Positions 7,831 to 64,000 of a stretch of DNA of 64,000 nucleotides are shown here, in pieces. The notes beneath the pieces are model-generated. The model was not told the DNA's origin. It worked only from the letters and a program-made list of their open reading frames with translations, and did no database searches. The stretch spans positions 60,393 through 124,392 of the forward strand of contig LARD01000007.1 in the NCBI GenBank assembly GCA_000980375.1. The letters are read 5' to 3'. Within the stretch, counting starts at the first letter, position 1; each line of letters opens with the position of its first letter. A program made the translations under genes and the position numbers. The DNA comes from Clostridium sp. K4410.MGS-306. Lineage in GTDB: Bacteria > Cyanobacteriota > Vampirovibrionia > Gastranaerophilales > Gastranaerophilaceae.

Positions 7831-8533
7831 TTTGATACAGTTTTTTCAAACTAACGTTAAAGGCGAATTTTCTTTACTGATTCTTGCTTTATGTTTCTTA
7901 GGGGGGGTAGTGTCATCACTGTCTCCCTGCGGAATAGGCATGCTGCCTGTAGTTGTAAGCTACATTGGCGCTTCGCCCGAGCAAAAGGTATCAAAGTCTG
8001 CAATGCAGATTATCTCGTTTATTTTTGGTCTTGCTGTGAGTCTTACAGCCATAGGCGTTGTTGCAGCTATCACAGGTCAGGTTTTTGGTGCGGGTAACAG
8101 AGCCTATTTTATACTTCTGTTATCAGCGTTGATTATGATATTCGGGCTGAACCTTATTGGCGTAATTGATATTAATTTTCCTGTTCTTGTCAAAAAATTT
8201 CCGCAAAGCAACAAAGCCAATGCCTTTTTCTACCCCATGCTGCTTGGTATGGTGTTTGCTTTTGCAACAACTCCGTGTTCAACACCGATTCTGGCAGGAA
8301 TCATGGCCGCTGCTTCTTTGAGCTCAAACATTGCTTATGCAGCTTTAATGCTCTTTTTGTTCTCCATTGGACAGGGCATGATTATACTCGTTGCAGGGTT
8401 ATTTACATCAGCTTTAAAGAACATTTCTTCGTTTGCGAGATATTCTGAAATTCTCACCAAAATAAGCGGCGTTATTCTTGTATTGTTCTCTTTATTCCTT
8501 TATTACAAGGTGTTTAGCGAGTTTATTGTATAA
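7823..8533 (+). CDS. ccdA: CcdA/DsbD-type thiol-disulfide electron carrier
   Basis: 236 residues, mostly membrane (six hydrophobic segments), the size of CcdA. Two conserved Cys-Pro elements are visible: SLSPCGIGMLP near residue 36 and TTPCSTPILAG near residue 154. These cysteines carry electrons from cytoplasmic thioredoxin across the membrane. The gene starts within the end of the thioredoxin-like gene and likely serves it, rather than a full cytochrome c maturation locus, since no other ccm/res gene is nearby. Confidence 0.9.
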   Translation: MDNLIQFFQTNVKGEFSLLILALCFLGGVVSSLSPCGIGMLPVVVSYIGASPEQKVSKSAMQIISFIFGLAVSLTAIGVVAAITGQVFGAGNRAYFILLLSALIMIFGLNLIGVIDINFPVLVKKFPQSNKANAFFYPMLLGMVFAFATTPCSTPILAGIMAAASLSSNIAYAALMLFLFSIGQGMIILVAGLFTSALKNISSFARYSEILTKISGVILVLFSLFLYYKVFSEFIV

Positions 8534-47625: not shown

Positions 47626-48156
47626 CTAAACTCTTACGTTGTTGATTTCGTTATAAGCGTTTACGAGTCTGTTTCTTAATTGGAGCGCCATTTGCATTGT
47701 GAGGTTTGCTTTTTGAGAGGCCAGCATTACTTCATGAACGCTGATATCTCCGCCTGATGCAAATGTTTCGGCTGCTTCGTAAGCAGCGTTTTGTGAAGTG
47801 TTTACATCATTCAATCCGTTAGAAAAAGCCTGACCAAATGAATTTGCAAGGTTTTCTACAGCAGAATTGCTTTTGCCTTTTGTCGGGTTTTTCGTGTTGT
47901 TTTGCGCTTCGTAGTTTCCCTCTATTTTGTCTATGGGTGATATCCCCATATTTTCAAGCCCCACATTCATTTGAATACCTGTGTTGATAATTGGGCCTTG
48001 CGCGACGCTTTGTGCGTCTTGCATTTTGCTGTTTAACACATTATCAAAAGCAGTCATTCCGTTTTTATCAGAGCTGATATTAAACGAATCCATCTGCTGT
48101 GAAAATATTTTGTTATAGTTTTGTATTGAGTTGTTTGCTATTTGATTAAACTGCAA
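47626..48156 (-). CDS. fliE: Flagellar hook-basal body protein FliE
   Basis: 176 residues, longer than the usual about 100. The last 80 residues match FliE (SVHEVMLASQKANLTMQMALQLRNRLVNAYNEI). FliE links the MS ring to the rod. The first 95 residues are an Asn/Gln-rich extension with no known domain. It is the last gene of the regulator-flgB-flgC-fliE operon, 13 bases after flgC. Confidence 0.92.
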   Translation of the reverse strand: MQFNQIANNSIQNYNKIFSQQMDSFNISSDKNGMTAFDNVLNSKMQDAQSVAQGPIINTGIQMNVGLENMGISPIDKIEGNYEAQNNTKNPTKGKSNSAVENLANSFGQAFSNGLNDVNTSQNAAYEAAETFASGGDISVHEVMLASQKANLTMQMALQLRNRLVNAYNEINNVRV

Positions 48157-48169
48157 TTTTTATACTCCC

Positions 48170-48676
48170 TTAAATTCGTAATGCAGCAGAAATCATACCT
48201 TTTGTTGTCTCTGCCGTTGTTACGTTGGCTTCGTATGCTCTTGAGGCCGAAACCATGTTAACCATTTCTTCAACAACGTTGATATTCGGTAATGTCACAA
48301 AACCGTCTGCGTCCGCTTCGGGATTTGAAGGGTCATAGATTGTTTTGTAAGGGTCGTTTGACGGTGTGATTTCGGCAACTTCAACGCCCTGTGAAATATT
48401 TTTGTCATCGTAAGAAATGCCGCCTTTTAAAGCAATAGTGCCGTTTGTCGGGCTGTAGTAAGCCTCGTGGTGTCCGTCGGGAAACGCCGGTGCATTTGAG
48501 CCCAGCCTGTCAGCGTAGATTGCTTTAAAGCTTACACTTTTTTTTATGTAAACCCCGGGTGTACCGTCAGGGTTTCTTGTTGTATTTACGTTTGCGATAT
48601 TTGAGGCGATGTTGTCCATCATTGTTTTCTGGGCATACATGCCGCTGCCTGAAATATCAAATGCGCTAAAACTCAT
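48170..48676 (-). CDS. flgC: Flagellar basal-body rod protein FlgC
   Basis: 168 residues. The N-terminal rod motif FDISGSGMYAQKTMMDNIASNIANVNT and C-terminal VNMVSASRAYEANVTTAET define FlgC. It builds the proximal rod. It is 3 bases from flgB, in the same operon. Confidence 0.96.
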   Translation of the reverse strand: MSFSAFDISGSGMYAQKTMMDNIASNIANVNTTRNPDGTPGVYIKKSVSFKAIYADRLGSNAPAFPDGHHEAYYSPTNGTIALKGGISYDDKNISQGVEVAEITPSNDPYKTIYDPSNPEADADGFVTLPNINVVEEMVNMVSASRAYEANVTTAETTKGMISAALRI

Positions 48677-57434: not shown

Positions 57435-57977
57435 CTATTTTTGGTATAAAACCATACCCATTGTTTCGTTAGCAGGTAATGCTTTTTGAGGGTAAATAGC
57501 GATTGTGAAAAGGTCAAAGATTCTTGTTGTAGAAGTAGTGTATCTGTTAGGACCTTTCATACCGTTAACGTCAACTTCAACAACTGAACAAATGTTGCCT
57601 TCTGTTGCCTGGTCGTTAGCATTACAATTTGAACTAGGTTGACCCATAGCGCCTCTTTGTTCAGCATAAGTTTTGAACCACATACCGTCAGCAGTATAAA
57701 GTTCAGTGTTAGTTTGGTCAGAAGACATAACGTTTAATCTTTGTGTTAACAGATCAAAGAATGCTGTACCGTTATAGTCAGTAGCATCTCTACCGTCTAA
57801 CGCGTAGTTCAACGTAACTGCCTGGTTGATCATAGAAGTTGCTTTTTTGTAAGCAGCTCTAAATTCTTGTTGAGCGGTAGATTGCATCAATGAAGGAATT
57901 GTCATAGCTGCGATTACACCGATAATCATCAATGTAACTAAAACTTCCGCTAAAGTAAAACCTGATTTTTTGTTCAT
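57435..57977 (-). CDS. Type IV pilin/pseudopilin-like protein
   Basis: 180 residues with a type III (prepilin) signal: KKSG before FTLAEVLVTLMIIG, with Glu at mature position 5, then a hydrophobic helix ending TIPSLM. The exported part has two cysteines (SSNCNAND and NICSVVE) and acidic patches. This exact pilin style is abundant in Gastranaerophilales-type genomes. It may be a minor pilin or a type II-secretion pseudopilin. GAGGA lies before the ATG. Monocistronic. Confidence 0.92.
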   Translation of the reverse strand: MNKKSGFTLAEVLVTLMIIGVIAAMTIPSLMQSTAQQEFRAAYKKATSMINQAVTLNYALDGRDATDYNGTAFFDLLTQRLNVMSSDQTNTELYTADGMWFKTYAEQRGAMGQPSSNCNANDQATEGNICSVVEVDVNGMKGPNRYTTSTTRIFDLFTIAIYPQKALPANETMGMVLYQK

Positions 57978-61442: not shown

Positions 61443-61489
61443 AAAAAGGGATAAATGCAAAAGAAACAGAAAAAAGGCGGTGAAGCTTA

Positions 61490-61960
61490 TTGTTAAGCAT
61501 TAACACCGATACACTAAATATATTAATGCAAAAAAATCTGACCACTGCCCAAAATGCAGTGTCCCAAGCATTGGAACGAATGAGTACAGGCTACAAAGTA
61601 AACAGCGCCAAAGATGATGCAGCCGGGTTGTATATAGCAACAAGCATGAGGGCTCAAATAAGCGGGCTTAAACAGGCATATAAAAATACTCAAGACGGAA
61701 TATCCTTTTTAAATACAGGCCTTGGCGCGTTTGAAAATATGACAACAATATTAAACAGGCTTCGAGATTTATCTGTTCAGGCTGCCAATGGAATATATGA
61801 TACAGATGCAAGAAATGCAATGCAAAAAGAATCAGATGAATTGGTCAAGCAACTGGAACAAATATTAACTTCAACAAATTTTAACGGCCAAAAAATATTC
61901 AATTATCCTCCCGGCTCAAGCACCGCAAGAGTTTCCACCTACTCGGGGGGGGGGGGCTGA
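61490..61960 (+). CDS. fliC: Flagellin N-terminal part, frame ends in a poly-G tract
   Basis: 156 residues from TTG 61490, with AGGCGGTGA about 8 bases upstream. It matches the FliC/FlaA D0-D1 domain: MLSINTDTLNILMQKNL..., ERMSTGYKVNSAKDDAAGLYIATSMR, DGISFLNTGLGAFENMTTILNRLRDLSVQAANG. The frame stops at TGA 61958 right after twelve G. Removing one G (or adding two) opens the frame into the RTX-like region that runs to the window end. The gene is therefore probably a phase-variable flagellin in the OFF state. The symbol is the family name; the flagellin copy number is unknown. Confidence 0.85.
   Translation: MLSINTDTLNILMQKNLTTAQNAVSQALERMSTGYKVNSAKDDAAGLYIATSMRAQISGLKQAYKNTQDGISFLNTGLGAFENMTTILNRLRDLSVQAANGIYDTDARNAMQKESDELVKQLEQILTSTNFNGQKIFNYPPGSSTARVSTYSGGGG
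61945..61956 (+). repeat. G12 homopolymer, phase-variation tract
   Basis: Twelve consecutive G inside the flagellin coding sequence, at the exact border between the conserved N-terminal domain and the RTX-like part. Upstream and downstream frames differ by one base. In an AT-rich genome such a run is very unlikely to persist by chance. Confidence 0.8.
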
Positions 61961-64000
61961 ACCGTTAAAAAATATTCAGCGAGCAGGATTTCGCATTAAA
62001 AATGAATCTTTTGCAACAACAAATTCAAACCTCCAAAATACTCTTGCCGCCACTGATGATACAATAGAAGGCTCTATAGAAGTTCAGGGTAACGCTTCTC
62101 AAACAGTTATTATTGATGGCGTAGAGTTTTTGGTAAAGAATAAAAATGCAATCTCCCAGTCATTTAGTTATATAAAAAACAAAACAACCGGCGAAATTAC
62201 AATTAACGCAGGTGCATTTGATATAAAAGGAATTTCCGACGTTGAATATAATCTTATTATAAACGGCTATGGAAATACCGTAACAACAGGCGATAGAGAT
62301 GACACAATAAGACTAACAGAAGCAGGCAGGTCTACCACTCTTTCAACAAACGGCGGGAATGATAAGGTCTATGACGAGTCTCAAGCCGCAAACATTCGTC
62401 TTGGTGCCGGTGATGATTATTACGAAGGATCAAACTATTATAATGCAGTTTATGGTGAGGATGGGGATGATACCTTTGTTATTTCAAAAGCAACGCAGAC
62501 AATTAAAGGTGGAGCCGGTAATGATAAATTTATATTGAGTGGTGTAATGGGCTCTAGTGTATATTTTTACGGAGACGAAGGGGATGATACTTTTGATTTG
62601 ACTAATGTTAGTGCATCGTCAAATTTTACAATCGTGGGTGGTGAGGGCACTAATACTGTGATAGGGCAAGTGCCCAAAAACGTTATTGCTGCTGATATTG
62701 TTGGCGGTAACGTTTTTTCTTTAGATTTTGCAGCCAATGAAACAAAAGAAATTTTAATTAATGGCATAAAATACACTATTCAAGCTAAATATGACGGTTC
62801 ATTTGTGTATTATTTGAACGATGATGGCTCAATTGGATTTAACGGTAGATATTTTACTATCTGGGGAGAAGAAAACAAAGCACATAATGTAGATTTAAAA
62901 GGCTCTTATTTAACATTCCATGGCGGTAATCTGGCTGATAAAATTGTTCTCAATAGTAAAAGTTGTTCAGTCTATGGTGGAGATGGGGATGATGAAATTA
63001 TCATAAATCAAGGAGCATTATACGTAAACGGAGAAGGGGGCAATGATCATATTGTCGTAGCTGCATCATTGCAAGCAGATAGTTATGTCTCAGGCGGTGA
63101 AGGTGATGATACGATTGATGTTAAAAGCACTGCATATAACCTTCACGGCGGAAGCGGAAACGATGTGTTCAATCTTTTAAATTCTGCTGCTCTTGATTCT
63201 ATTATTGATTGCGGGGAAGGTGACGACACCGTAAATAACCAGACCTCAAATACCGCCTCTAACATTACTTTAATCGGCGGAGCAGGAACAAATACTCTTA
63301 ATGGTAAGTTTGATTCTGTAATGATTTCTGGGTTCGGAGATGATGTGTCAGAAGCAAAAGATGTTTCTTTTGCAGCAGGTGAAACAAAAGAAATCACCAT
63401 TAACGGCAAAAAGTATAAAGTTACGAATACTTCGACAGAAGGAAATACTTTTCAATATTATTACAACCCTCTAACAGACCAAATCACTTTTGGAGGACAT
63501 AAGTTTGATATTTATGCCCAGGAAGATGTTGAACACGACGTTATATTGAGAACAAATGACGTGAGTTTTCACGGCGGAAGCAAAAACGATAAAATAAGTA
63601 TTATGCAAAAAGGCAACGACGTCTATGGCCTTGGCGGGGATGACACAATAATTGTTAATGGAACTTCCAGCTGGGTTTCTGCCGGAGATGGCAATGACAA
63701 AATCTATTTGGAAGACGCAAGTTCCTGGAGTACTATATACGGTGGCAACGGAGACGATGAAATCTTTCTTAATGCAGTGACTAACGACTCTAATATTAAC
63801 CTTGAGAGCGGCAATGATACATATCACATAAATTATGCAAGTCCCAAGGCAATTATGAGAGATTATGATGGTGATAATACATATTATGTAAATGTTGACG
63901 ATATGGTAATAACCTCGGGTGTGGGCAACGATACGTTCATAATAAACGGCTCAAACAACACAATCTTAGGCCAAGGAGGAGATGACTACTACGAAATAAA
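61957..64000 (+). CDS. RTX/beta-roll variable region of flagellin, cut by window edge
   Basis: In the frame starting GCT at 61956 the sequence is open to base 64000, about 680 codons without a stop. It contains many glycine-aspartate nonapeptides of the RTX calcium-binding type: GGNDKVYDE, GAGDDYYEG, GEDGDDTFV, GGAGNDKFI, GGDGDDEII, GEGDDTIDV, GGNGDDEIF. A larger module (ETKEI-x-ING-x-KY ... HGG-x2-x-DKI) appears three times about 640-655 bases apart (near 62085, 62738 and 63382). A flagellin C-terminal domain would be expected beyond the window. It is likely surface-exposed on the filament. Confidence 0.8.

Follow-up and report, generated by a model that had tools for sequence, protein, structure and literature searches.

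The window (i.e., the whole 64-kb stretch of DNA analysed) contains, towards its end, a flagellin reading frame that opens with a TTG codon, matches Flagellin_N (PF00669) on residues 4–138 and ends in a run of twelve G (Table 1). One base 3′ of this G12 tract, a TGA stop (61958–61960) closes the frame after 156 residues. The original prediction, which placed 12 G exactly at the border between a flagellin N-terminus and a long open frame and took the present length for an OFF state, thus holds on both points. G12 is the sole run of at least 9 G or C in the window, the next-longest being a G7 at 7901–7907; none of 100 dinucleotide shuffles of the window matched the real count (largest count, 0), so that no G12 is expected. 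A leader GGCGGTGAGCTTAT comparable to that of the window gene lies ahead of the start in L001, the closest genomic relative. Since the window also encodes a fliE-like and a flagellar rod protein, the host is flagellated. Positions 57435–57977 (minus strand) encode a small protein of prepilin-like type that carries a methylation motif at its N-terminus.

Table 1. Positions of the flagellin locus and of other flagellar genes in the window.
Feature	Position	Strand	Evidence
Ribosome-binding-like leader GGCGGTGAAGCTTA	61476..61489	+	Sequence; precedes TTG start
Flagellin N-terminal ORF, 156 aa (OFF product)	61490..61960	+	Flagellin_N, E 1.5e-38
G12, proposed slippage switch	61945..61956	+	Same border in 20 other genes
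Downstream frame with predicted RTX-like β-roll insert, cut by window end	61959..63998	+	680 open codons
fliE-like gene	47626..48156	-	PF02049, E 7.7e-23
Flagellar rod gene, flgB/flgC type	48170..48676	-	Flg_bbr_C, E 5e-13; Flg_bb_rod, E 6.1e-6

The downstream frame, in a phase other than that of the stub, stays open up to the window end, where the gene itself is cut; among the matches listed, its relatives P0121, P0122 and P0140 measure 1335–1364 aa, above the 1000 aa that define a giant flagellin. This openness was correctly foreseen. The RTX-like nature foreseen with it is weakly marked in the window alone, for which the Pfam RTX profile (PF00353) gives 15.7 bits against a cut-off of 23. 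We assign an RTX-like character to the insert because of its relatives, in which the same profile scores 25.1 bits (P0242) and 52.1 bits (L064), and because of its predicted fold. The model of the 680 residues (22 homologues in the input) has a mean pLDDT of 88 and consists almost entirely of strands, with a single PDB fold match under E 0.001, namely an RTX domain (7usl_C, E 1.7e-7). As TM-scores on the query are 0.11–0.15 for the first five PDB fold matches, the claim is limited to the fold class of a predicted RTX-like β-roll, and such an insert gives no ground for a toxin label. Homologue P0242 is 85% identical to the last 489 residues of the window frame and then runs into Flagellin_C; judged by such relatives, the downstream frame would belong to the flagellin. 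Arrival at a flagellin C-terminus had been named in advance as one of the results on which the prediction would stand or fall.

All of the best 18 loci of the genome scan come from Candidatus Gastranaerophilales MAGs, and homologue P0010 bears the name Candidatus Gastranaerophilaceae bacterium. The N-part of L001 is 75% identical to that of the window gene; like the latter, L001 has a G12 tract in the OFF state, beyond which a frame of 1183 codons ends in Flagellin_C (E 6.1e-15). The second state is represented by P0003, a metagenomic fragment of 238 aa that is 90% identical to the window stub, continues through a Gly run and thereafter shares 92% identity with the window downstream frame over 77 residues. 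P0003 is evidently an ON form existing in nature. The stub endings GGGG, GGGGLNR and GGGLNR, found in P0005–P0007, P0009 and P0010, are the products of 12, 13 and 10 G, respectively, in the window context, with tract lengths of proteins being deduced from their endings. Orthologues in different states were also detected among the matches listed: L001 is OFF (G12) and its orthologues P0121, P0122 and P0123 are ON with two or three Gly, and L060 and P0140 are ON, with P0024 as an OFF stub and P0141 as a downstream-only ORF. With both forms of near relatives present in public data and orthologues differing in length and state, the phase-variation reading first proposed for this locus has gained in strength.

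A tract within a flagellin had been called unusual, which understated the matter, as 20 further flagellin genes bear one at this same border and upstream tracts exist elsewhere in the family (see below). Including the window gene, 21 flagellin genes with G8–13 or C7–13 at the border were found in six Gastranaerophilales assemblies, i.e., one each in the window and G001, two each in G003, G005 and G064, and 13 in G004. These genes were picked for having a tract (runs of at least 7 G or C at the junction were counted); L011 (no tract), L061 (interrupted, in frame), and L015 and L018 (both cut before the border) stand outside the set. The 13 genes of G004 are spread over nine contigs and therefore form a dispersed set. 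As assembled, seven genes are ON and 14 OFF, with L009 entered as ON on a contig that ends after just 24 codons; 7 of 21 is the share expected for random length, and there is thus no sign of a favoured ON state. The linker encoded by the tract is Gly (poly-G) or Pro (poly-C), both of which occur. The section of the gene preceding the border is the one that can be aligned to solved flagellins up to their residues ~138–150, as seen with the tract-free paralogue L011. Each of the five ON genes scanned with Pfam (of seven) displays Flagellin_N, an insert and Flagellin_C, the insert being GLUG in four and DUF3060 in one. The post-tract frame reaches a flagellin C-terminus in 16 of the 21 genes (15 by motif, L163 by Pfam) and runs past the end of the available stretch in the remaining five.

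Flagellin_N matches number 23 in G004, eight in G001, and 10 each in G002, G003 and G005. Across G001, G003, G004 and G005, 16 of the 30 G/C runs of at least 9 nt sit at the flagellin border; the other 14 lie away from flagellins, some of them inside other switchable-looking genes. The search of G002 returned no G/C run of at least 9, and its gene L002 has an interrupted GGGGTGGGGG at the junction, in frame. Tract genes are present in all four genomes of the genus of G004. For the genus of G001 (at least 23 genomes), no junction run of at least 7 was found in the 13 long-type loci examined, five of which have a C6 at that position, and 20 loci from the wider family gave a single junction run (C7, in G005). 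The four long flagellins of G067 (L167–L170), with equal N-part scores, share an identical in-frame C6 at the border. Separately, the Flagellin_N-type gene L157 (G021:C28) has an open frame of 3249 aa, with no tract at the junction or within 450 nt upstream.

In G044, G063, G029 and G034, long flagellins occur without a junction tract and with a tract upstream instead. These genomes fall in the family of G001 and are absent from the genomes listed for the genera of G001 and G004. We compared 25 long genes, whose open frames measure at least 495 aa, with 31 shorter genes of no more than 402 aa, all of our own choosing. A run of at least 8 G or C lies within 450 nt upstream in 16 of the 25 long genes versus 1 of the 31 shorter ones (Fisher p 6.6e-7, a test that, like those that follow, ignores kinship among genes), and within 160 nt in 13 of 25 versus 1 of 31; for L180, the upstream sequence comprises 159 nt only. 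The sole shorter gene with such a tract, L192, is truncated at the end of its contig and seems to be of the long type; conversely, nine of the 25 long genes have no upstream tract. The pattern emerged after eleven of the 25 had been looked at, and among the 14 fetched afterwards a tract is present in eight (p 1e-4 versus 1 of 31). Fifteen long genes outside the 25 (L152, L156, L157 and L164–L175) include just one with a tract (L156, C9 at 330 nt), 14 having none; with these added, a tract within 450 nt is present in 17 of 40 versus 1 of 31 genes (p 1e-4) and one within 160 nt in 13 of 40 versus 1 of 31 (p 0.002). In 10 of 13 cases (L192 included), the upstream poly-G ends 83–87 nt before the gene start, and in 6 of 13 TATAAT follows directly on its 3′ side. 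Of the orthologues L145 and L178, which share 95.6% identity across 1500 bases, the former has G13 and the latter G9, with flanks that match at 58 of 60 positions on one side and at 82 of 83 on the other. This is the layout that a promoter-spacing switch would have. None of the 21 junction-tract genes carries an upstream tract of at least 8 within 450 nt, where that distance could be read.

Long homopolymers can also slip during transcription. Slippage by RNA polymerase or the ribosome, through which a single DNA length would yield stub and full protein in a set proportion, may coexist with slippage in DNA, but as a substitute for it we judge this mechanism very unlikely, even if it is the strongest of the alternatives: tract lengths vary between orthologues, and upstream tracts, being outside the reading frame, are left unexplained. 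Slightly more improbable still is an assembly or sequencing error, whereby the true tract would always be in frame and assemblers would miscount long G runs. Most of the genomes are indeed MAGs, and homopolymers of 10–13 nt are the hardest to count; however, OFF copies exist with only G8 or C7 (L013, L162 and L017), which argues against miscounting. In addition, stub-form clusters recur separately, several with many members (189 for P0001, 57 for P0005 and 19 for P0010, in counts that mix fragments), the stub endings correspond to three tract lengths, and upstream tracts differ between near-identical flanks, as in L145 and L178.

Less probable again is that the G/C run serves mainly as a recombination joint for swapping inserts among paralogues. 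Seven G004 paralogues do have similar ends and divergent middles (N-domain 91–96%, last 250 bases 87–96% and middle 58–72% identical), and exchange between these copies is possible, but a recombination joint leaves both the effect on the frame and the tracts upstream of genes unexplained. Moreover, L063 (G003) and L061 (G004) represent one locus with the same neighbours, at which the insert has been kept (81% protein identity) and the tract differs, i.e., L063 is OFF with C13, and L061 has an interrupted, in-frame CCCCTCCTCCC and looks locked ON. Least probable of all is that OFF copies are decaying pseudogenes: 14 of 21 are OFF as assembled, yet the frames hidden behind the tract in those 14 genes are open for 432–1474 codons, and dN/dS is 0.15–0.32 in the five pairs in which both copies are OFF. 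These five belong to the 12 downstream-frame pairs with dS <2 (of 17 analysed by the Nei-Gojobori method; dS is over 2 or infinite in the other five), for which dN/dS spans 0.15–0.34. By these ratios, purifying selection evidently acts on post-tract frames, OFF-OFF pairs included.

We thus favour, at a probability of roughly 85%, slipped-strand phase variation of dispersed giant flagellins, acting through the reading frame in certain genomes and, in others, probably through the promoter. It is to this reading that the placement of the tracts, the two states, the length differences between orthologues, the C-termini of relatives, the selection on hidden frames and the upstream tracts all point when the sequences are compared. 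The tract would act as a slipped-strand contingency switch, with a change in length resetting the frame. At an OFF length, translation would halt shortly after the N-terminal D0/D1 helices (~156–185 aa in the 14 OFF genes); at an ON length, it would read through a large β-roll or GLUG insert to the C-terminal helices (~600–1440 aa). In other genomes, the tract, mostly ~85 nt before the start of the same gene class, could alter promoter spacing by its length and may in this way affect transcription. Ordinary flagellins of ~300 aa carry no such tract. Switching of single oversized flagellins by slippage is well supported by these comparisons, and reversible switching within one population would be the corresponding behaviour of the cells. 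Being of flagellin type, the long protein would be expected to use flagellar export, and it may then enter, or be displayed on, the filament. Adhesion, antigen variation or phage-receptor variation would each fit a β-roll that projects from the filament, and any of them may be its role.

As the tract genes form a dispersed multigene set, it would be possible for a cell to turn several oversized flagellins on or off separately. We lean, by a small degree, towards a wider reading, i.e., a combinatorial flagellar surface in a gut lineage related to the Cyanobacteria, with 13 tract-bearing copies in one genome. Dispersed giant and probably adhesin-like flagellins, each with its own G/C switch arisen in two places, would then offer thousands of coats, and plain flagellins would keep the filament working. 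Two tract positions on one gene class and almost none on ordinary flagellins suggest selection for the switching of these genes. Flagella are mostly viewed as propellers whose flagellins are constant and number one or a few. In this little-studied gut lineage, the subunit of the filament itself appears to be a switchable family, which opens to testing the ways in which such commensals alter what is visible to the host immune system and to phages that bind flagella.

Homopolymer slippage is known to affect flagella via fliP in Helicobacter pylori, flhA in Campylobacter coli and flgR/flgS in C. jejuni, and Salmonella chooses its flagellin by Hin inversion (PMC2831843, PMC4811654, PMC11868660); flagella are also described for Melainabacteria (PMC7018530). 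As far as these sources go, the fliP, flhA and flgR/flgS loci share with the present genes a reversible change in homopolymer length that switches flagellar function (here probably so), but they encode export or regulatory proteins, whereas the tracts here lie in or upstream of flagellin genes, many per genome. Hin likewise switches which flagellin is made, but by recombinase inversion between two alternatives rather than by homopolymer tracts on many independent genes. Giant flagellins (PMC6248924) and flagellinolysins (PMC5595980) similarly hold a large domain between the flagellin halves; the inserts here are RTX-like or GLUG in genes with tracts, and the accessible portion of PMC6248924 mentions neither a switch nor this lineage. 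RTX proteins would share the nonapeptide-type repeats, and supply the sole PDB match under E 0.001, but in the present genes such repeats would lie within a flagellin. Among the open-access matches listed, the literature contains no report of such phase-variable flagellins or of phase variation in Gastranaerophilales/Melainabacteria. The class of mechanism is thus known, and its target, scale and two placements appear to be new.

Several genes of other types also bear tracts. Four long genes of G001 (L106–L109) resemble those of autotransporters and begin with a signal-like N-terminus, with G9–G11 located ~26–36 codons into the open frame, in frame in some and out of frame in others; L108 and L109 have no Pfam match. 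An AlgX-like acetyltransferase gene (L096, L102 and L103) has, in each of three genomes, a tract (G13, C10 or G12) at a matching place, preceded by ~100 codons and followed by 482, and out of frame in all three. Finally, two acyltransferase genes (L101, with Acyl_transf_3, and L104) have a G11 close to the 3′ end.
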